From the IMG/VR virus record IMGVR_UViG_3300046810_000563, positions 1 to 21,270 of that record: DNA of 21,270 bases. One strand, 5' to 3'. Within the stretch, counting starts at the first letter, position 1. Every line of letters starts with the position of its first letter. The position numbers and the translations under genes are program-made. This document shows positions 3,061 to 21,270 of the stretch, one piece after another. Under the pieces are notes generated by a model. That model saw only the letters and a program-made list of their open reading frames with translations. It had not been told where the DNA came from and did no database searches. This DNA comes from a virus.

Positions 3061-3398
3061 TGGCCATCGAGAAATTCACCTGGCCAACCCAGCGCGGGGA
3101 AACACCCGATATCAATTATCGGGTGCGCACCTCGAAGTTCGGCAACGGCTATGCGCAGAACGTCGGCGACGGCCCGAACAACAAAGAGGACTCCTATCCG
3201 ATCATCTATACCGGCCGGAAGGCCAAGGTGCAGCAGATCATGGCGTTCCTCGACCGGCATGCCGGGGCGAAAGCGTTTCTCTGGACAACGCCACTCGGTG
3301 AACTCGGTCTGTTCACCTGCAAAAATCCCGCTCCCACACCAATGGGCGGCGAGGTCTTCAAACTCACCGCCACGTTCGAGCGGGCATTCCAACCATAA
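3060..3398 (+). CDS. Minor tail protein, lambda M-like
   Basis: This 112-aa protein of the phage minor tail protein M family is part of the tail-tip complex under the tube. The chosen start is the ATG overlapping the tape-measure stop (TGATG), preceded by GGGAGGG. It gives the typical beginning MAIEKFTWPTQRGETPDINY. An in-frame ATG 48 nt upstream lies inside the tape-measure gene and is less likely. The length and the pattern (RVRTSKFGNGYAQ, a central DRHAGAKAFLWTTP segment, and a C-terminal KLTATFERAF strand) fit the family. It is followed 9 nt later by the L-like gene, which suggests translational coupling. Confidence 0.92.
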   Translation: MAIEKFTWPTQRGETPDINYRVRTSKFGNGYAQNVGDGPNNKEDSYPIIYTGRKAKVQQIMAFLDRHAGAKAFLWTTPLGELGLFTCKNPAPTPMGGEVFKLTATFERAFQP

Positions 3399-3407
3399 GG
3401 GGTAATC

Positions 3408-4157
3408 ATGCCGCTGATCAGTGACATCCAGGTGCTAGAGCCTGGCAGCGAAGTGCTGCTCTTTGAATTGGACGGCACGGATTACGGCGCGGATGTACTG
3501 CGCTTCCACGGGCACGCAATACCGCACACGCCGGCCGAGTTGATTGCCGCCGGCGACGATGCCGACCAACTGCCGGCGAAGGCGATCTACTGGCAGGGCA
3601 ACGAGTACAGCGCCTGGCCGATGCAGATCGACGGCATCGAGGCGAACGGCGACGGCACGGCGGTACGACCGACGCTGTCGGTGGGCAACGTCAACGGACG
3701 CATCACCGCGCTCTGTCTGGCCTTCGAAGATCTGCTCGAGTTCAAACTGACGATGTGCCACACGCTCGGCACTTACCTCGATGCTGCCAACTTCCCGGTC
3801 GGCAACCCGACGGCCGACCCAACCCAAGAGACGATCGAGGTCTGGTACATCGACCAGAAAACGAACGAAGACGGGGAGACTGTCAGCTGGGAGCTTGCCA
3901 GCCCGGGCGACGTCGGCAATGAGTCGATTGGCAGGCAGGCCACGACCCTGTGCCACTGGTGCCTCACTGGCGGCTATCGCGGCCCGAACTGCGGTTACAC
4001 CGGGCCATACGTCACGAAGGATGGCGTGATCACCGACAACCCCGAACTGGACGAGTGCGATGCCACGCTTGGCAAGGGTTGCATTCCTCGTTTCGGCGAG
4101 GGAAATCCGTTGCCGTTCGGCGGATTTCCCGCTGTGAGTTTGATCGCAAGGAGCTGA
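3408..4157 (+). CDS. Minor tail protein, lambda L-like, with iron-sulfur cysteines
   Basis: This 249-aa tail-tip protein matches lambda gpL. The C-terminal domain carries cysteines at 182, 185, 195, 217 and 225. The last four have nearly the spacing of the four cysteines that bind an iron-sulfur cluster in the lambda protein. The C-terminus (NPLPFGGFPAVSLIARS) has the usual family ending, so the gene is complete despite the insertion that follows. The ATG is preceded by AAGGGG at good distance. An AAGGAG just before the stop (4148-4153) looks like a ribosome site for the next tail gene, K, but the K start now lies about 770 bp away. Confidence 0.93.
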   Translation: MPLISDIQVLEPGSEVLLFELDGTDYGADVLRFHGHAIPHTPAELIAAGDDADQLPAKAIYWQGNEYSAWPMQIDGIEANGDGTAVRPTLSVGNVNGRITALCLAFEDLLEFKLTMCHTLGTYLDAANFPVGNPTADPTQETIEVWYIDQKTNEDGETVSWELASPGDVGNESIGRQATTLCHWCLTGGYRGPNCGYTGPYVTKDGVITDNPELDECDATLGKGCIPRFGEGNPLPFGGFPAVSLIARS

Positions 4158-4160
4158 TAG

Positions 4161-4256
4161 AATAGGCCTGTGCGGCTAGGTTGATCCCCGAAAAGCCGGC
4201 CCCTAACCGGCCTGCCGCACTCTATTAGTTAGGGCTTCATACTGTAGGGGTGTGAA
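4161..4256 (+). promoter_or_regulatory. Structured RNA leader of the HNH cassette
   Basis: The 96 nt between the L-like gene and the HNH gene can fold strongly. AATAG pairs with CTATT and GTGCGGC with GCCGCAC, giving a long closing stem (about 4161-4229). Inside it GCCGG and CCGGC form a hairpin. A second hairpin pairs TTCATAC (4236-4242) with GTGTGAA (4250-4256), with one G-U pair, and ends at the HNH start codon. Its 7-nt loop is G-rich (TGTAGGG), so the likely ribosome site lies in loop and stem. This could limit HNH translation or be part of a mobile cassette. I see no group I intron core. Function is inference; the complementarity is seen directly. Confidence 0.55.
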
Positions 4257-4880
4257 ATGAAAGGCAAAAAGACAGACCTGCTCGGCAGGTTGTTCGGCCG
4301 CTTGATTGTGACTGAAGAGTCGCCATCCGTAGGGCGCAAAGCGCACTGGGTGTGCCGCTGTGAATGCGGAACCGTCAAGGTTGTTGGCGCGGATGCTTTA
4401 ACCAGAGGGGCCACACTTTCATGCGGCTGCCTAAAGAAAGAACTTGCTACGACGCATGGGCTGTTTGGTCATGAGCTTTATCAGACCTGGGCCAATATGC
4501 GCGATCGATGCGAGAACGAAAAATGCAAAGATTTTCCAAACTACGGGGCTCGCGGCATACGCGTATGCGATGAGTGGAAAGATTTCGCTGTATTCGTTAG
4601 TGACATGGGCCCGCGGCCAAAAGGGCACACCATTGAGCGTGTTGATGGAAGCATGGGGTATTCGCCGGGCAATTGTGTTTGGGCAACAACGCAAACACAG
4701 AACAGAAACAAAAGGACGAACCTAACACTGCGTCTTGGTGATACCGAAATGTGCGCCAGTAGGTGGGCAGAGCAAACAGGAATTCCGCTGCATGTTATCT
4801 GCGAGCGGAAAGCTATCGGATGGTCAGACGAGGATGCGGTGACAAAATCCGTCAGGCGCTACACCAAAAAAACAGCATAA
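4257..4880 (+). CDS. HNH-type homing endonuclease-like protein
   Basis: This 207-aa protein belongs to a widespread phage family of free-standing HNH (sometimes HNH/AP2) proteins. The N-terminal part has Cys pairs that may bind zinc (C33, C35, C37, C56, C58). The middle part (about 70-152) has the family block YQTWANMRDRC, then YGARGIRVCDEW, then HTIERVDGSMGYSPGNCVWAT with H124 as likely metal ligand, and NRNKR. The C-terminal 50 residues (WAEQTGIPLHVICERKAIGW) look like a small DNA-binding helix-turn-helix. It sits alone between two tail genes, with its own structured leader and terminator, as expected of a selfish insertion. Whether it still cuts DNA is unknown. Confidence 0.82.
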   Translation: MKGKKTDLLGRLFGRLIVTEESPSVGRKAHWVCRCECGTVKVVGADALTRGATLSCGCLKKELATTHGLFGHELYQTWANMRDRCENEKCKDFPNYGARGIRVCDEWKDFAVFVSDMGPRPKGHTIERVDGSMGYSPGNCVWATTQTQNRNKRTNLTLRLGDTEMCASRWAEQTGIPLHVICERKAIGWSDEDAVTKSVRRYTKKTA

Positions 4881-4881
4881 C

Positions 4882-4905
4882 AAAGGGCGCTTAGGTGCCC
4901 TTTTT
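4882..4905 (+). terminator. Intrinsic terminator after the HNH gene
   Basis: AAAGGGC (4882-4888) pairs with GCCCTTT (4897-4903) and the T-run continues to 4905. It begins one base after the HNH stop. It would stop late transcription before K unless the polymerase is antiterminated or reads through. Confidence 0.7.
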
Positions 4906-4920
4906 ATTGGGCTCATAAAA

Positions 4921-5685
4921 ATGCAGAAGAACCTCCTAAAGGCATTTACCGATCACGCTGCAGAAACGTATCCGAATGAGGCGTGCGGGCTTGTGGTTCG
5001 TGACGGCAGGTCGCGGAGATACATCAGGTGCACGAACGCGGCCAAGGACAGGTCTGAGCAGTTCAGTATTCCACCGGAGGAGTACGCAGCGGCTGAGGAT
5101 ATTGGGGAAGTCCTTGGGGTATTTCACAGCCACCCAGACGCGACGAGCCGACCCTCTCCGGCAGACCTTGCCATGTGCTGCGCTACGGCTTTGCCATGGT
5201 GGATTCTCAGTTGGCCCGAAGGAGACTTCAGGGAAGTGCTGCCGGAACCGCTAACTCCGCTGTTGAAACGGCCATTCGTGCACGGCGCTTGGGACTGCTG
5301 GCAGGTCTGCGCCGATTGGTACAAGCGCGAGTGGGGGCTGGAGTTCGAAGCTTTCAAACGCGCCGATGGGTGGTGGGAGAGCAAGGACAACACCAGCCTG
5401 TACGAAGCTAACTACGAGGCGGCCGGCTTCTACCGAGTTGACCAGCCACAGCGCGGCGACATGATCGTGATGGAAGTGGGGCGCACGGTGTACCCGAACC
5501 ACGCCGGAATCTTTTTAGGTGCGGATCCGACATTGCCCGGAGAAGATGCCGCGACGTTCGGCCCCGGGCCTTTCCTGTTGCACCACCTGTACAGCAGACC
5601 GTCAGAAGTTATCGTTTTCGGTGGGCCGTGGCTCGACCGGACACGCCTGATTCTCAGGCACAGAGGGGCAGGATTAAGCACATAA
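4921..5685 (+). CDS. Tail assembly protein, lambda K-like (JAMM + NlpC/P60 domains)
   Basis: This 254-aa protein is needed to assemble the tail tip and probably acts as a peptidase at the cell wall during infection. The N-terminal half is a JAB/JAMM metallopeptidase: E20, the HSHP motif (H69, H71) and S79...D82 are all present. The C-terminal half is an NlpC/P60 cysteine peptidase with C126 (HGAWDCWQV) and a later catalytic His in NHAGIFLG. The ATG begins a typical K protein (MQKNLLKAFTDHAAETYPNE). Only weak GGG stands upstream, and it overlaps the region just after the HNH terminator. In related phages K follows L directly; here the HNH cassette separates them. Confidence 0.93.
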   Translation: MQKNLLKAFTDHAAETYPNEACGLVVRDGRSRRYIRCTNAAKDRSEQFSIPPEEYAAAEDIGEVLGVFHSHPDATSRPSPADLAMCCATALPWWILSWPEGDFREVLPEPLTPLLKRPFVHGAWDCWQVCADWYKREWGLEFEAFKRADGWWESKDNTSLYEANYEAAGFYRVDQPQRGDMIVMEVGRTVYPNHAGIFLGADPTLPGEDAATFGPGPFLLHHLYSRPSEVIVFGGPWLDRTRLILRHRGAGLST

Positions 5686-5759
5686 TGTTGGAGAGTTTTC
5701 CGTGGTGGAGGCAAAGACCGTCAAATGATAATCTTATTTTTTTCAGACGATGGATCGCA

Positions 5760-6158
5760 ATGATCGACAAGCTTCTAACTACTGCACTTGCATGCGCTGT
5801 TTTGCTCGGCTCCCCATCTGCAATGGCTTGGACTGATGACGGTGGGAAGATAGTTTTTAGTCGTGGCGAAATAGACCATTGTTCGCAACTAGCCCTCGAC
5901 GCTGGCGCGTTAATGCTCGGCAGGCAGGCAAATGAGCCGCCTTATTTTGATCGAGACCAATATGAAGTGCCATCAGCGGCGAGAAAAAGCATGCGGGAAA
6001 GTTTGTCACGAATGGTGCTTACCTACCCCGTACGAGACACTACTGAAGAAAGGCAGAACGATCTTAAGGGCTTTATGAAGTCGGCGAAGCTGATCTGCAT
6101 AAAAGCCTATATGGAGTCGGTTCCTGCGAGCCCTCACGCACAGACAGCAGCACCCTGA
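5760..6158 (+). CDS. Secreted protein of unknown function (prophage cargo)
   Basis: This 132-aa protein is not recognised. It has a clear Sec signal peptide (MIDKLLTTALACAVLLGSPS, cleavage expected after AMA at residue 23). The mature protein of about 109 residues contains two cysteines (C41, C113) that could form a disulfide in the periplasm. An in-frame ATG at 5685 overlaps the K stop and would add 25 residues (MLESFPWWRQRPSNDN...). I prefer 5760 because it puts the signal peptide at the N-terminus, but its ribosome site is weak. The AT-richer sequence at 5725-5750 could hold a promoter. Its place inside the tail operon and its export suggest a lysogen-expressed moron acting at the envelope. 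That is inference. Confidence 0.65.
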   Translation: MIDKLLTTALACAVLLGSPSAMAWTDDGGKIVFSRGEIDHCSQLALDAGALMLGRQANEPPYFDRDQYEVPSAARKSMRESLSRMVLTYPVRDTTEERQNDLKGFMKSAKLICIKAYMESVPASPHAQTAAP

Positions 6159-6232
6159 CCCTTTCGGTGCACAAATTTTTGCACGCTTCCAGCGGGTGTT
6201 ACATTGCCAGCATTTCCACAGGAGTGACCTGC

Positions 6233-6298
6233 ATGAAATTGATCGTAGGAGCGCTGGCGGTGCTGGGTGCAGCGCCCGTTTTGTCATCGGGGGCGTAA
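6233..6298 (+). CDS. 21-codon ORF encoding a bare signal-peptide-like segment
   Basis: ATG at 6233 has a good GGAG site 8 nt upstream and encodes MKLIVGALAVLGAAPVLSSG followed by A and a stop, so it is almost only a hydrophobic export signal. Its stop is immediately followed by the ATG of the next gene (TAAATG). The first 13 codons resemble the start of the lipoprotein gene at 6628 (MRILIGALALALLAGC), including a shared GGAGCGCTGGCG. It may be a decayed lipoprotein gene, or a leader peptide coupling translation of the next gene. A possible promoter lies upstream: TTGCAC near 6178 with an extended -10-like TGTTACATT. Confidence 0.4.
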   Translation: MKLIVGALAVLGAAPVLSSGA

Positions 6299-6625
6299 AT
6301 GGAGCTGTCTCGCCTCAATGAGCTCTTTTTCGAGAACAACTGCGTAGCTTCGATGCGGCTCGAAATGGTGGATTTCAAATACAACCTCACGCTGACCATG
6401 TCTTCCGCCGATGATCCAGAAACCGAGGGTGTGACGGCTGTTTTTCATGACGTGAGCGCACTGAAGCTATGCGGCTTCGGTGGCGGGCTAACCCAATTCA
6501 TGGACCTCGTCGTGACTCGCATCGACGACGGCCTCGATAGAATTCGGTACGAGCTGAGGGATAGTGAGGATGAAAAAATCTCGTTCTATTTCTTCACCTT
6601 CAGCGTGCGTGACCACAAGGAGTAA
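6299..6625 (+). CDS. Small cytoplasmic protein of unknown function (prophage cargo)
   Basis: This 108-aa acidic protein has no signal peptide or membrane segment. It alternates strand-like stretches (MRLEMVDFKYNLTLTM, DRIRYELRD, ISFYFFTFSV) with a Gly-rich turn (KLCGFGGGLTQF). The pattern recalls small single-domain bacterial proteins found beside immunity-type genes, but I cannot name a family. It starts directly after the stop of the 21-codon ORF, which carries the ribosome site, so the two are probably translationally coupled. It ends 2 nt before the lipoprotein gene, forming one cargo operon. Confidence 0.65.
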   Translation: MELSRLNELFFENNCVASMRLEMVDFKYNLTLTMSSADDPETEGVTAVFHDVSALKLCGFGGGLTQFMDLVVTRIDDGLDRIRYELRDSEDEKISFYFFTFSVRDHKE

Positions 6626-12710: not shown

Positions 12711-13976
12711 ATGACCTGGTACAAATCGGGAACGGTCTCTGTTGCTCAAAATTCCAATGCGGTGATCGGCGTCGGCACGGCTTTCATCGCGAACTCGCGT
12801 GTTGGTGATGCCTGGATCGGCCCAGATAGTGGGCTGTACGAGGTCACCAACATTGCGAGCGATACGGCGCTTTCGATCTCGCCGCCGTATAAAGGCCAGA
12901 CCGTTTCGGGCGGAACTTATGCCCTCGCGCCGATGCAGGGTTATTTGAAGGACACGGCCGATGCCCTCAGGCAGGCCTCGTTAGAGGTAGGCGGTGCACT
13001 GGATGGGCTGGAGGAAAGCGTGCTGTCGGCAAGTCAGTCGGCGGACGCTGCTCTTGCTTCCAAAAATGCTGCCGGGGAATCGGCGGCAGCTGCGGGTCAG
13101 TCCGAAACTGCGACGCTGGAATACAAAAACGCGGCGGGTCTTTCGGCCACTGCCGCGGAGCAATCGGAGGCAGCATCGCTTGGCTACAAGAATGCCGCCG
13201 AGACGTCTGCAACCAATGCTGGGCAATCGGAACAGGCCTCCCTTGGTTACAAGGATGCTGCGGCACTTTCTGCGCAGAATGCCGCAGCATCCGCTGCTTC
13301 AGCCGGAAATTTAGGGGTTGGTTCTGGTTACATCGATGGGTTGATCCCGTCTTGGAACTCAAGCAGCTCGATCACCGTTTCTGCCGGGGCGGCGTTCATC
13401 CAGAGTTCGAACAAAGTCCTGCGGGTCCTATCACCCATCACTCTGACGGGCATCGGGGGATTGAGCGCCGATGTGTTTTATTACCTTTATCTATACGAAA
13501 ACGCAGGAGCACCGGCGATCGAACTGTCTGCAGTCGTTCCCGCTGCGCCGTTTTCGGGCGCGGCCCGGTCAAAAACCGGGGATTCATCGCGGCGCTTTGT
13601 TTGCGCACTGCGTTCCAGTGCTAGTGGAACCATTTATATCTTCCAAGTGGCTGACGGGCTGATATTTTATTCAACCAACACTGCCGCCGCACCGTTCCGC
13701 CGCCTCAGCGGTGGTGGTTCAAACGTCTATGCCTCCGTATCACTCTCGACGGTGGTTCCTCCAACTACTCAAACGGCAATTATCCGAGGAAGCGCCGCTT
13801 CAGGTGTAGCGGGGGTGAGCAACTCGTTCGCAGGCAATGTGCTGATGACTCAATTCGATTCCGGTTCGCGTTATATGGTTGCGTTCCCAACAGCCGCAGA
13901 TCAATCGATCCTTTACATTATGCTTAGCGCTGGCACCTTTACTTTAGACGTTTGTGGATACGGGATGGATCGATAA
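12711..13976 (+). CDS. Tail fibre protein with 21-residue repeats
   Basis: This 421-aa protein is the likely receptor-binding side or tip fibre. Residues 1-90 form an attachment domain that I recall from Pseudomonas phage fibres (MTWYKSGTVSVAQNSNAVIG, then a GLYEVTNIASDTALSISPPY segment). Residues 117-179 are three 21-residue repeats of the type SKNAAGESAAAAGQSETATL, with a partial fourth. They are Ala/Ser-rich and probably a trimeric shaft. From about 205 a Ser/Gly/aromatic beta-rich C-terminal region follows that should hold the receptor contact. GGAAAC precedes the ATG after AATAA. The stop overlaps the start of the chaperone gene. Confidence 0.88.
   Translation: MTWYKSGTVSVAQNSNAVIGVGTAFIANSRVGDAWIGPDSGLYEVTNIASDTALSISPPYKGQTVSGGTYALAPMQGYLKDTADALRQASLEVGGALDGLEESVLSASQSADAALASKNAAGESAAAAGQSETATLEYKNAAGLSATAAEQSEAASLGYKNAAETSATNAGQSEQASLGYKDAAALSAQNAAASAASAGNLGVGSGYIDGLIPSWNSSSSITVSAGAAFIQSSNKVLRVLSPITLTGIGGLSADVFYYLYLYENAGAPAIELSAVVPAAPFSGAARSKTGDSSRRFVCALRSSASGTIYIFQVADGLIFYSTNTAAAPFRRLSGGGSNVYASVSLSTVVPPTTQTAIIRGSAASGVAGVSNSFAGNVLMTQFDSGSRYMVAFPTAADQSILYIMLSAGTFTLDVCGYGMDR
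13059..13247 (+). repeat. Three 63-bp coding repeats in the fibre shaft
   Basis: Codons 117-137, 138-158 and 159-179 of the fibre encode related units (YKNAAGLSATAAEQSEAASL, YKNAAETSATNAGQSEQASL), and a fourth partial unit starts at 13248. The DNA copies have diverged, so the repeat is old, but unit number could vary between related phages. Confidence 0.85.
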
Positions 13977-14326: not shown

Positions 14327-14410
14327 TAATTCATAGTTTAGTCATCGGAGAGATACAGCTTTTCCTTGATGTGTGCAGATGTTTAAATGCAGCTCATTTT
14401 GGAGGGGCAG

Positions 14411-15445
14411 ATGGAAAAAAAGCAGCGTTTTGCAGGGGCAGATGGTATCCGTGGATTCGCATGTCTCATTGTGCTAATCGCCCACATCCCAGGCTTCTTT
14501 TTTCCGCAGATAGCTTCATATTTCTCCGGAACGGGTAAATACGGGGTTTGGCTGTTTTTTGTTCTGAGTGCGTTTTTACTCACGTCAAGGTTCATGCAAA
14601 CAGGCTTTGGTTTAACATCTCTCATCAGTTATTCCCTAGGTCGATTTCTAAGAATTATTCCAATTTTCATCTTGGTATTATTCGTTTATTGGTCGCTAGG
14701 CTATGCGGGATTATTGACTGCGTCAGATTTATGGCTTGCAGCCACAATGAGCAATGGCTATGCGCATCTTTGGACGATTCCCGTAGAATTCAAATTCTAT
14801 TTAATACTGCCGTTTTTTGCTTTTTCGTTTGTATGGGTTGCTAATAGATATGGCACCTATGCAGCAGCGGGCATTGCCGTGATGGAAATAATTATACATC
14901 AACTAATATGGCCGTATTGGTTTACCCCGGCAAACAGTATCGACACTCGCTGGTACATACCAAGCTTCATATTTGGTTGCTGCGCCGCTGTAATTATTCC
15001 TGGATCAAGGCTGGCAAAAGATAGATGGCCAACGCTGATCGGGTGTGTTGTAATAATTTTATTATTAGCTCTTAGTCCAGGTGGGAGGATGGTGTTGCTA
15101 GGCACACCGCCCGATGGCTGGCTTATGGATAAATTCATACTTTTGAGCTTTTTTTGGATGCTATTCATAATAGGCCTAGCTCACGGCAATGGCCTCATCG
15201 GTACAGTTATGAGGAGCGCGCCTTTAAGATATCTCGGTGCATGGAGCTACTCTATCTATCTCATTCACTGGCTTTTCTATCTTTCGGTATCTTCTATTGG
15301 GAAAGGGTGGGCATTTGCGACCATTGCTTTCCTGCTGACGATATTGTGCGGCGCGGCAATGTTCATCTTGATTGAATCACCCATTGAACGCTTCAGGCAC
15401 TCTACCCAAAATAAATTTCTCGGAATCAGGATGTTAGCTAATTAA
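14411..15445 (+). CDS. Acyltransferase 3 family membrane protein (probable O-antigen acetylase)
   Basis: This 344-aa protein has about ten membrane helices and the motifs of the OafA/acyltransferase-3 family: RFAGADGIRGFACLIVLIAH at the N-terminus with the conserved His, LWTIPVEFKFYLILPFF, GAWSYSIYLIHW, and ESPIERF at the end. Such enzymes transfer acetyl groups from the cytoplasmic side to surface sugars. Phage copies commonly alter O-antigen and so block reinfection. The start ATG has GGAGG 6 nt upstream; an ATG 24 nt earlier is less likely. The gene is clearly AT-richer than the tail genes, indicating separate acquisition. It closes the late transcription unit, ahead of a strong terminator. 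The sugar substrate is unknown. Confidence 0.88.
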   Translation: MEKKQRFAGADGIRGFACLIVLIAHIPGFFFPQIASYFSGTGKYGVWLFFVLSAFLLTSRFMQTGFGLTSLISYSLGRFLRIIPIFILVLFVYWSLGYAGLLTASDLWLAATMSNGYAHLWTIPVEFKFYLILPFFAFSFVWVANRYGTYAAAGIAVMEIIIHQLIWPYWFTPANSIDTRWYIPSFIFGCCAAVIIPGSRLAKDRWPTLIGCVVIILLLALSPGGRMVLLGTPPDGWLMDKFILLSFFWMLFIIGLAHGNGLIGTVMRSAPLRYLGAWSYSIYLIHWLFYLSVSSIGKGWAFATIAFLLTILCGAAMFILIESPIERFRHSTQNKFLGIRMLAN

Positions 15446-18449: not shown

Positions 18450-20087
18450 TCAGCTCGTCGGTTGCAGGAGCCAGCCGTGTGGCTGCCAGTGCAAGTGATG
18501 ACTGGCATTCAATGCCCGCAGAAACGCCTGATCGTGGGACACCGCGACAATTGCACCAGGAAATGTCTGCAACGCCTGTTCGAAGGCTTCCACCGAAGGC
18601 AGATCCAGATGATTGGTTGGCTCATCGAGCAGCAATAGCTGCGCCGGTGTCTGGCGCCACAATGCGAGGGCGAGGGCAGCTTTCAGTCGCTCACCGCCAC
18701 TGAGCGAGGCGCAGGGTTGGGTCGCGCGTCGCGCATCCAGTTGCAGGTGAGCTAGATAGCTGCGCAAGGTGCCTTCGTTTAACGGCGTTTGCTGCGCCTG
18801 CAACTGCTCGACAATTGAAGTTCGCTCATCGAGCAGTCGCAGATGCTGATCGAGAAAGGCGAACGGCACATGAGTGGCGCATTCTCCACTCACGGGAGCC
18901 AGTTCTGTGGCGAGCATTTTCAGCAATGTCGATTTGCCGCAGCCATTGGGGCCGGTGACCGCAATGCGCATCGGTCCATGGACGGTAAGGTTCAGACAGG
19001 CTGCCGGCGAATCGACTGGCAACCAGGGCAAACGGGCATCAATCAACGTGCAGACCTGGCGAGCACTCGGCACCCCACTTCCCGGCAGGTTGATCAGCAC
19101 GTCATCCTCCGGCAAAACGTTGGCGTAAGCTTCACGGACGCGCGCATCCAGACCGGATTTGCGCGTTTGCTGGGCAGCTTTTACCTGCCCCATGATCTCC
19201 TTCGCTGCGGCTTTCATGGCCGCTCGTTCAAAGCCGGCAACGTTCGCGGTTTGCGCATCGCGTCGACTGCCCGCCGCGTGACGCTGGATGGTGTCGTGCT
19301 CACGTTGCAGCCGTGTTCGCTCCCGTTGGCGTTCACTTCGCACCTGATCGAGCTGAGCCTGAGCAGCAACCTGGTGGATCTGACGCTGCTCAACGAATTG
19401 TGAATAACGGCCGCTGAAGACGGTTGCACCCGAGGGCGTGAGTTCGACGATGCGCCGCATCTGCTCCAGCAATTGGCGGTCATGGCTGACGACAATCAAG
19501 CCGCCGCGCCATTGTTCCAGCCTGTTCATCAGCCATTCTCGCCCCGTGCTGTCGAGGTGATTGGTCGGCTCATCCAGCAGCAACAATTGCGCATCACTCA
19601 ACAGCGCACCGATCACGGCGATTCTGGCTTGCTGGCCGCCGCTGAGGTTGTCCGTCAAATCAGTTGCAATGATGTCGCGGAGGTCCGCCTCATCGAGACG
19701 CTGACGCAAGCGCTCCGCTAGGTCCCAGCGCTCGCCGATAAGGTCGAAATCTTCGGCCAGGGCGCCGCCCTGATCCACTCTTTCCAGTGCTGCGAGCACT
19801 GTAGCGGTGCCCGTCGCCTCGGCAACGGTTTGCCCGGCTGTGGCTCCGGATGATTGCGCAACGTAATGCACGGTGGCGTAGCGTATGACGTTGCCTGCAG
19901 TGGGCTGCAATTGCCCGGCGATCAACCGCGCAAGCACACTTTTGCCGACGCCATTGCGCCCGACGATTGCGGTCGGTTGATGGTCGAACGTGAGATTCAG
20001 CTCATCGAAAATCGTCTCGCCATTGGCGAATTGAAAACTCGATTGATTTAGAGAAACGAGAGCGGGCGTACGCGAGACGTGAGTCAT
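18450..20087 (-). CDS. ABC-F family ATPase
   Basis: This 545-aa protein has two ATP-binding cassettes and no membrane segment, as in ABC-F proteins, which act on ribosomes. Cassette 1 has Walker A GRNGVGKS (43-50), signature LSGGQQAR (about 147) and Walker B LLLLDEPTNHLD (about 166). A charged helical linker (about 225-310) follows. Cassette 2 has GPNGCGKST (about 377), LSGGERLK (about 461) and a second LLLLDEPTNHLD (about 481). All catalytic motifs look intact. The ATG at 20087 has GGAGG 6 nt upstream; the longer frame to 20150 lacks support. Whether it is a translation factor or an antibiotic-resistance type cannot be told from motifs. Confidence 0.93.
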   Translation of the reverse strand: MTHVSRTPALVSLNQSSFQFANGETIFDELNLTFDHQPTAIVGRNGVGKSVLARLIAGQLQPTAGNVIRYATVHYVAQSSGATAGQTVAEATGTATVLAALERVDQGGALAEDFDLIGERWDLAERLRQRLDEADLRDIIATDLTDNLSGGQQARIAVIGALLSDAQLLLLDEPTNHLDSTGREWLMNRLEQWRGGLIVVSHDRQLLEQMRRIVELTPSGATVFSGRYSQFVEQRQIHQVAAQAQLDQVRSERQRERTRLQREHDTIQRHAAGSRRDAQTANVAGFERAAMKAAAKEIMGQVKAAQQTRKSGLDARVREAYANVLPEDDVLINLPGSGVPSARQVCTLIDARLPWLPVDSPAACLNLTVHGPMRIAVTGPNGCGKSTLLKMLATELAPVSGECATHVPFAFLDQHLRLLDERTSIVEQLQAQQTPLNEGTLRSYLAHLQLDARRATQPCASLSGGERLKAALALALWRQTPAQLLLLDEPTNHLDLPSVEAFEQALQTFPGAIVAVSHDQAFLRALNASHHLHWQPHGWLLQPTS

Positions 20088-20232
20088 CGGCACCTCCAAA
20101 AAATGTCGTAAAAACTGACAAGCGCCGAGCACGGCGTGTCGCGAAGGCATTTTTAGAAGGTTGCGTTGTTCACTTCTGCGGTCATCCAGAGGGAGGGAAA
20201 GGTGGCTAGCCTAGAGGACGTCGCCGCACGGA

Positions 20233-21270
20233 TCAAGGTGCGTCTGTCACTTCACTCATGCGCTCAAGGAACATCGCCAACGCCACTTCCTCGGGACGCA
20301 GGCCTTTGCGTACGCGCGGACGCGGCAATTCGGCGAGGGCGCCGAGCATGAAGTTTTCCACCACGGCCGGGTGGATATAGCACTTGCGACACACGGCAGG
20401 CGTGTTGCCCAATTGCTTGGCCACCCCTTTGACCATTTCCACCACATGCCGCTTGGCCTCGGTTTCGGTCTCGTGGGTCAGTTCGCGCAGCACCGACAGC
20501 GCCAAGGCACTGCCGGCCCAAGTGCGGTAGTCCTTGGCCGTGAATTCAGCGCCAGTGAGGGTTTGCAGATAGCTGTTGACGTCGGACGAGCTGACGGTGT
20601 GCCGCTCGCCGTGCTCATCCAGATATTGAAACAGGTTCTGACCGGGCAGTTCGAGGCAGCGTTTGATGATGCGCGCGAGCCGACGGTCCTTGACGGTGAT
20701 CTGGTGTTCCACGCCGCTTTTGCCGCGAAACTGGAAGAGGATCGCGCTGCCGTTGACCTCGACGTGGCGGCTGCGCAGGGTGGTCAGACCGTAGGAGCGA
20801 TTGTCTCGCGCGTATTGTGTGTTGCCGACGCGGATCAGCGTGGCGTCGAGTAACGTAATCACGGTGGCCATGACTTTGTCACGGCTGAAACCCGGCGCGG
20901 CGATCAACGCTTCGAGCTGCTTGCGCAACTTCGGCAAGGCCAGACCAAATTCCCGCAAGCGTGAATACTTGTCGGCATCGCGCACTTCGCGCCAGCGCGG
21001 GTGATAGCGATATTGCTTGCGACCACGAGCATCAATCCCGGTGGCCTGCAGATGGCCGCGCGGATCGGCGCAGATCCAGACGTTGGTGTAAGCCGGGGGC
21101 ACGGCGAGGGCGTTGATGCGTTTGATTTCGTCGGGATCGGTAATCCGTTGGCCTGACGGCTCGAAATAACTGAACTTGCCGCGCAGTTTCTTGCGGGAAA
21201 TACCGGGCTGGGTGTCATCGACGTAGTGCAGGTCGGATGGCAGTGTGAGATTGAGCTCGGTATCTGGCAT
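20233..21270 (-). CDS. DNA topoisomerase IB (poxvirus-like)
   Basis: This 345-aa enzyme relaxes supercoils by nicking one strand through a 3'-phosphotyrosine. The N-terminal DNA-clamp domain (DLHYVDDTQPGISRKKLRGK, AYTNVWICADPRGHLQATGI) is followed by the catalytic domain with R147 (LIRVGN), K184 (FRGKSG), R249 (DYRTWAG) and the nucleophile Y298 (CRKCYIHP), the expected pattern. Length fits the bacterial family. The window ends exactly at the ATG, so upstream sequence and ribosome site cannot be judged. The 145 bp between this gene and the ABC-F gene hold no gene I can support. Confidence 0.95.
   Translation of the reverse strand: MPDTELNLTLPSDLHYVDDTQPGISRKKLRGKFSYFEPSGQRITDPDEIKRINALAVPPAYTNVWICADPRGHLQATGIDARGRKQYRYHPRWREVRDADKYSRLREFGLALPKLRKQLEALIAAPGFSRDKVMATVITLLDATLIRVGNTQYARDNRSYGLTTLRSRHVEVNGSAILFQFRGKSGVEHQITVKDRRLARIIKRCLELPGQNLFQYLDEHGERHTVSSSDVNSYLQTLTGAEFTAKDYRTWAGSALALSVLRELTHETETEAKRHVVEMVKGVAKQLGNTPAVCRKCYIHPAVVENFMLGALAELPRPRVRKGLRPEEVALAMFLERMSEVTDAP

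Follow-up and report, generated by a model that had tools for sequence, protein, structure and literature searches.

The two textbook cases of antisense control of phage genes by a structured RNA are C4 of phages P1 and P7 (RF01695), an RNA of three stems that heads the transcript under its control, and CI of phage P4, whose one exposed loop has two targets in the same transcript. C4 arises through RNase P processing (PMC5320573), and the CI RNA pairs with its sites seqA and seqC, causing early termination (PMC4825925). In the Salmonella prophage Gifsy-1 the short isoform of the IsrK leader activates its own read-through mRNA (PMC4825925). The endonuclease genes seg and mob of phage T4 and mobE of phage Aeh1 lie between conserved genes and are controlled at their ribosome binding sites. 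The locus described here, found in a stretch of viral DNA of 21,270 nt (IMG/VR record IMGVR_UViG_3300046810_000563, below called the window), resembles each of these systems in part. We propose that a mobile HNH endonuclease cassette entered the junction of tail genes L and K, bringing its own control region, that the leader RNA of the cassette represses the HNH gene by pairing over its Shine-Dalgarno sequence, and that K is made from the late transcript. We put the probability of this explanation as a whole at roughly 0.6.

In the window gene L (3408-4157, plus strand; Pfam PF05100, E 2.4e-63; stop codon TGA at 4155-4157) and gene K (4921-5685, plus strand; Pfam Prok-JAB and NlpC/P60, phrog_30), which starts with the ATG at 4921, are separated by a long insert. 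The sequence AAGGAG at 4148-4153 (plus strand), within the end of L and followed by CTGATAG at 4154-4160, is the ancestral Shine-Dalgarno sequence of K, now orphaned. The original prediction had located these elements and the HNH gene correctly, and had held that an HNH cassette separates the ribosome binding site of K from its start codon. A comparison of 86 L-K junctions, the window included, bears this out. In 76 of them only 1-2 nt lie between the stop codon of L and the ATG of K, and the ribosome binding site of K falls within the end of L, the usual uninserted junction reading GGAGCTGA(C/T)ATG. Thus these relatives, which lack the HNH gene, have the short spacing that had been predicted, and neither the same long L-K gap nor a different K site was found among them. 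Nine junctions (the window, L004, L005, L016, L018, L062, L067, L092 and phage phiAH14a, which is L001) carry an insert of 763-920 bp, in every case at the same base and starting with TAGAAT directly after the stop codon of L; these nine are not all independent, as L004 and L005 are near-copies of the window and L018 and L067 are 98% alike. The one remaining junction, that of phage Alize (L003, 1732-1962), has a gap with a small ORF of another kind, and the junction therefore appears to be an insertion hot spot.

The gene inside the insert (4257-4880, plus strand) encodes a 207-aa HNH endonuclease of the free-standing homing type (phrog_374, E 2.8e-60), an HNH family protein located between conserved genes and missing from relatives. 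Comparison of the protein with solved structures gave no meaningful match. The HNH gene of phiAH14a at the same location is 42% identical, and L016, L062 and L092 have other HNH genes in the insert (37-45% identity). The left edge of the element falls inside L: the L gene of L016 is 100% identical to that of the uninserted L033 over 540 nt, beyond which the identity drops to 70% in the penultimate 30-nt bin and 47% in the last, with the L protein preserved despite the nucleotide divergence. This synonymously recoded end, about the last 55 nt of L, recurs in inserted relatives, the window being a hybrid, and in other inserted relatives the ribosome binding site at the end of L is itself rewritten. 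Co-conversion during homing would be expected to leave a flank replaced in this manner, cleavage by the enzyme being putative. Judged from the sequences, the insert is a mobile HNH cassette, a probable moron, consisting of the recoded L end, a -10-like TAGAAT, a structured RNA, the HNH gene and a terminator.

The leader of the cassette is a module in its own right. Over the first 100 bp or so of the insert L016 and the window are 92% identical, yet their HNH genes differ, and in L215 and L253 this leader, with an unchanged loop, accompanies yet other HNH genes at different late-gene locations. The view that the leader is a fixed partner of this HNH family was abandoned, as homologues of the HNH protein occur in eight other phages without a nearby match to the leader RNA.

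Elsewhere in the window, two ORFs that lie between K and the lipoprotein/I genes (5628-6625) have no Pfam or PHROGs match and are possibly more inserted cargo, and an O-acetyltransferase gene located behind the tail fibre region (14387-15445) is likely a surface-modification moron. The last part (18450-21270), with an ABC-F ATPase-like gene and another ORF on the minus strand, differs in gene order and orientation and is probably bacterial DNA past the prophage end; no tRNA was found.

The insertion would come at a price for K. For the region preceding K, base pairing with the 16S rRNA tail is predicted at -2.4 kcal/mol in the window and at -3.0 to -3.7 kcal/mol in the other inserted phages, compared to -5.8 to -7.7 kcal/mol for the K site of uninserted relatives. 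The insert thus costs K its ribosome binding site, in agreement with the weak site noted in the original prediction. The terminator that had been proposed between the HNH gene and K is also there: a hairpin at 4883-4904 (plus strand), AAAGGGCGC-UUAG-GUGCCCUUU followed by UUAUU, with a 9-bp stem running into the T run and a folding energy of -14.4 kcal/mol, which is retained in most inserted relatives. A consensus terminator scan did not report this hairpin, because the stem takes up part of the T run. In lambda-like phages the late transcript is subject to Q-type antitermination. As K is preceded by a terminator-like hairpin and lacks a good ribosome binding site, its expression most likely relies on a late transcript that reads through the cassette. 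Of the three options named in the original prediction this read-through is the likeliest, and it fits the K sites of all inserted phages, which are weak but present. Late antitermination would bring transcription as far as K, and K would be made at a lowered initiation rate.

The structured leader that had been suspected before the HNH gene is real, and its family identity, previously missed, is int-alpA RNA (RF02996). The match covers 4169-4234 (plus strand) and scores 49 bits in cmscan, above the gathering cut-off of 35.8; this cut-off was reached by all of 17 sampled loci. The family was reportedly first described by Weinberg and colleagues in 2017. In Rfam it is classed as an sRNA. The family fold is a three-way junction with the strands CUAG, CGAAAAG and CUG, and the window leader has the pairs of stems P1 (4170-4175/4215-4220) and P3 (4195-4199/4207-4211) as well as these strands (CTAG at 4176-4179, CGAAAAG at 4189-4195, all on the plus strand), as verified pair by pair in the alignment. 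It counts against our model that a plain energy fold of the window RNA prefers another, lower-energy structure to the family fold. A DNA-similarity search of phages and plasmids with the leader alone returned nothing, because int-alpA is conserved in structure and not in sequence. In a literature search, mostly without subscription journals, no function of int-alpA was found described, the one paper that names it giving presence or absence only; neither were the downstream sites, the hairpin and the cargo pattern reported below, so an earlier report may exist.

Upstream of the RNA, at 4158-4163 (plus strand), lies the -10-like hexamer TAGAAT (extended form TGATAGAAT), which is identical in all phages with the L-K insert. 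It has no good -35 element, and stem P1 begins 7 nt downstream of it. Among 180 non-redundant int-alpA copies, gathered from contigs of viruses and from the genomes of bacteria belonging to several phyla, a -10-like hexamer precedes the RNA in 55, usually 4-6 nt before P1, against 7 of 178 in a control stretch, suggesting that the transcript may start at P1. No promoter in the window passes a strict sigma-70 scan, which counts against the model. A U-rich, G-poor, terminator-like tract follows P1 across the family and suggests that a short sRNA form may exist; its weakness in the window is a further point against the model.

In the window the RNA lies between L and K, and not between int and alpA, the context that gave the family its name. 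This name does not define the family, as most sampled copies precede endonucleases, antirepressors or other cargo. In a set of 149 downstream proteins the commonest matches were HNH and GIY-YIG nucleases and antirepressors (Rha, AntA/AntB, KilA-N), the rest being spread over many other phage genes. Several copies are of interest for their location. Phage phiAH14a has a second int-alpA (L001, 3935-3999) with a different loop, TTACCTCC, directly 3' of K and before another HNH gene, its K thus being flanked by two independently keyed cassettes. Phage PMG1 (records 7093 and 14801) has weaker matches (L430, about 790-875; L431, about 800-861) preceding small genes that lie as inserts among the head-tail and tail genes, the one in L431 before a homologue of D3 Orf23. 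In phage Alize an int-alpA-like RNA is found just 5' of the Rha antirepressor gene (L432, about 888-963), and a Candidatus Brocadiia contig (L309) carries three int-alpA copies within 5 kb on the minus strand (802-870, 3172-3240 and 5612-5678).

The feature that ties the leader to the gene behind it, and which the original prediction had not noticed, is the P3 loop, CCCCUAA at 4200-4206 (plus strand). This loop has two complementary sites within the same leader and is our candidate for an antisense seed. Site 1, UUAGGG at 4229-4234 (GUUAGGG at 4228-4234), would form a duplex of -10.0 kcal/mol with the loop, and site 2, UAGGGG at 4245-4250, which is the Shine-Dalgarno sequence of the HNH gene, a duplex of -12.2 kcal/mol (both sites on the plus strand, energies predicted). 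Site 2 is part of a hairpin directly before the HNH start, P4 (4236-4256, plus strand), UUCAUACU(GUAGG)GGUGUGAA, with the Shine-Dalgarno sequence in its loop and 3' arm. Besides its two own sites, the only loop-complementary 6-mer on the plus strand of the window is at 13311, inside a gene.

Complementarity was scored for 167 non-redundant int-alpA loci with a simple scheme of our own, applied alike to controls in which the loops were dealt among the loci in 100 runs, keeping their anti-Shine-Dalgarno bias. The mean score was 14.9 for the best site, compared to 9.0 +/- 0.3 for dealt loops (control maximum 9.7), and 11.8 for the second site, compared to 4.9 +/- 0.3 (control maximum 5.7). The Shine-Dalgarno zone holds a loop-complementary site in 152 of the 167 loci, and 119 have two sites of at least 5 bp, i.e. 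one loop with two targets in the same transcript. Perfect 5-mer matches of the leader to its own loop are most frequent at -26 from the start codon (26% of loci, 1.8% in the control) and at -12 (25%, 2.7% in the control), both peaks being about tenfold above control. A stem of at least 5 bp around site 2, corresponding to hairpin P4, is present in 100 of 135 loci, whereas shuffling leaves it in 29%. In orthologous leaders preceding DUF1376-type cargo site 1 follows each change of the loop core and site 2 matches in every case (loop core/both sites: CATC/GATG, CGTC/GACG, CTTC/GAAG, TATC/GATA, CATT/AATG). This covariation was read residue by residue; a pair count on a MAFFT alignment was dropped, site 2 being misaligned between rows. 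The predicted pairing between loop and sites is thus well supported. In some genomes with two int-alpA copies the loops would cross-react, which counts against the model.

From these observations we infer the following course of events. Transcription starting at the -10-like element, or passing over it on the long late transcript, would yield a three-way junction exposing the P3 antisense loop, which could pair either with site 1, just 3' of the RNA, or with site 2 in hairpin P4. The latter pairing, made by the leader in cis and/or by a released sRNA in trans, would hide the ribosome binding site of the HNH gene, and the endonuclease would be kept silent in the lysogen and on the late transcript; site 1 would serve as a competing or second binding place for the loop. 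More generally, the int-alpA family is probably an antisense brake on mobile genes.

The presence of two sites can be read in another way. Across the loci site 1 tends to match the loop slightly better than site 2, so that pairing with site 1 and an open Shine-Dalgarno sequence would be favoured, as in an 'on' or switch design. In such a cis switch the pairing of the loop with site 1 would be the 'on' and with site 2 the 'off' state, thrown by a signal bound to the junction or by a trans-activating sRNA like IsrK, whose short isoform provides a precedent. Two nearly equal, mutually exclusive partners of one loop and the strongly conserved junction are consistent with this proposal, but the loops vary freely between loci, the cargo is diverse and mobile, unlike that of ligand switches, and there is no ligand-related theme among the genes; we consider the switch a minority possibility. 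It is also rather improbable that the leader controls transcription in the way of P4 CI, with the pairing on nascent RNA leading to early termination of HNH and perhaps of K. The U-rich tract directly after P1 in the family, the termination caused by CI at seqA and seqC, and the overlap of seqC with a Shine-Dalgarno sequence in phage P4 all speak for this mechanism, but in nearly every locus site 2 keeps the distance from the start codon expected of a Shine-Dalgarno sequence, a constraint that termination alone would not impose.

The preferred reading, repression by pairing over the Shine-Dalgarno sequence, must also be weighed against an incidental leader, i.e. an ordinary homing endonuclease gene with a hairpin at its ribosome binding site, the complementarity being a by-product of anti-Shine-Dalgarno sequence in the loop. 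Hairpin P4 by itself covers the Shine-Dalgarno sequence, and hairpins hiding ribosome binding sites are reported for mobE in work cited in PMC2988022. This would leave it unexplained, however, why dealt loops, which keep the same bias, score far lower, why site 1, which is no Shine-Dalgarno sequence, matches the loop too, and why orthologous leaders covary; we find this explanation very unlikely. Finally, the option mentioned in the original prediction that the RNA between L and K is removed, by an intron or ribozyme, deserves hardly any credence: restored spacing between AAGGAG and K would be good, but an Rfam scan of 3900-5100 at a loose threshold gave int-alpA and one sub-threshold match on the opposite strand, and no intron or ribozyme family, the insert has its own -10-like element and terminator, and where the ribosome binding site at the end of L is rewritten removal would not help. 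The insert also sits between two genes, where splicing would not be required for an intact reading frame.

It is interesting to compare the int-alpA leader with the systems mentioned at the outset. Like the T4 seg and mob genes and Aeh1 mobE, the HNH gene of the window lies between conserved genes, with a flank replaced in a manner resembling co-conversion and with control at the ribosome binding site; the difference is that this control would include an antisense-type leader RNA. As with IsrK, the leader may occur as a short sRNA and as part of a read-through mRNA, acting on the ribosome binding site of the next ORF, but IsrK activates and belongs to another sequence family. The likeness to C4 lies in a structured RNA at the front of the transcript controlled, in an antirepressor operon as target, in the pairing of a loop (b' of C4) at a ribosome binding site (icd in phage P1), which is predicted for the window, and in the position of the other site just after the RNA. 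In C4 each of the two sites has a segment of its own, a' or b', whereas both int-alpA sites match one loop. RF01695 had no match in 3900-5100 at an E-value of up to 5, while C4 of phage P1 itself scores 68.8. The design of P4 CI, one exposed loop (seqB) and two sites in the same transcript (seqA and seqC), one of them over a Shine-Dalgarno sequence, on a mobile phage carrier, recurs in the int-alpA leader. The CI targets lie on either side of the RNA and work through early termination, whereas the int-alpA sites are both downstream, and CI is processed from a longer transcript, whereas the -10-like element of the window suggests a start at stem P1. Neither phage P4 nor phage P1 has a match to RF02996, so C4 and CI were rejected as int-alpA members, and the resemblance is one of working, not of membership.

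Our model assigns a putative role and mechanism to an RNA family without a function in the literature searched, and it indicates that mobile endonucleases can sit in an essential tail operon under tight control. The two-site design was found before about 150 very different genes in phages and bacteria, and the variable P3 loop would be a ready-made, swappable specificity element. We see about an even chance that int-alpA stands beside C4 and P4 CI as a third class of phage antisense leaders, independent of both and very widespread, which silences mobile endonucleases and antirepressors across many bacterial phyla by means of a changeable loop keyed to two sites, a resident copy also silencing the same cassette when it comes in. 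The comparison suggests that antisense control of phage cargo in the manner of C4 and CI occurs far more often than these two textbook cases would imply.
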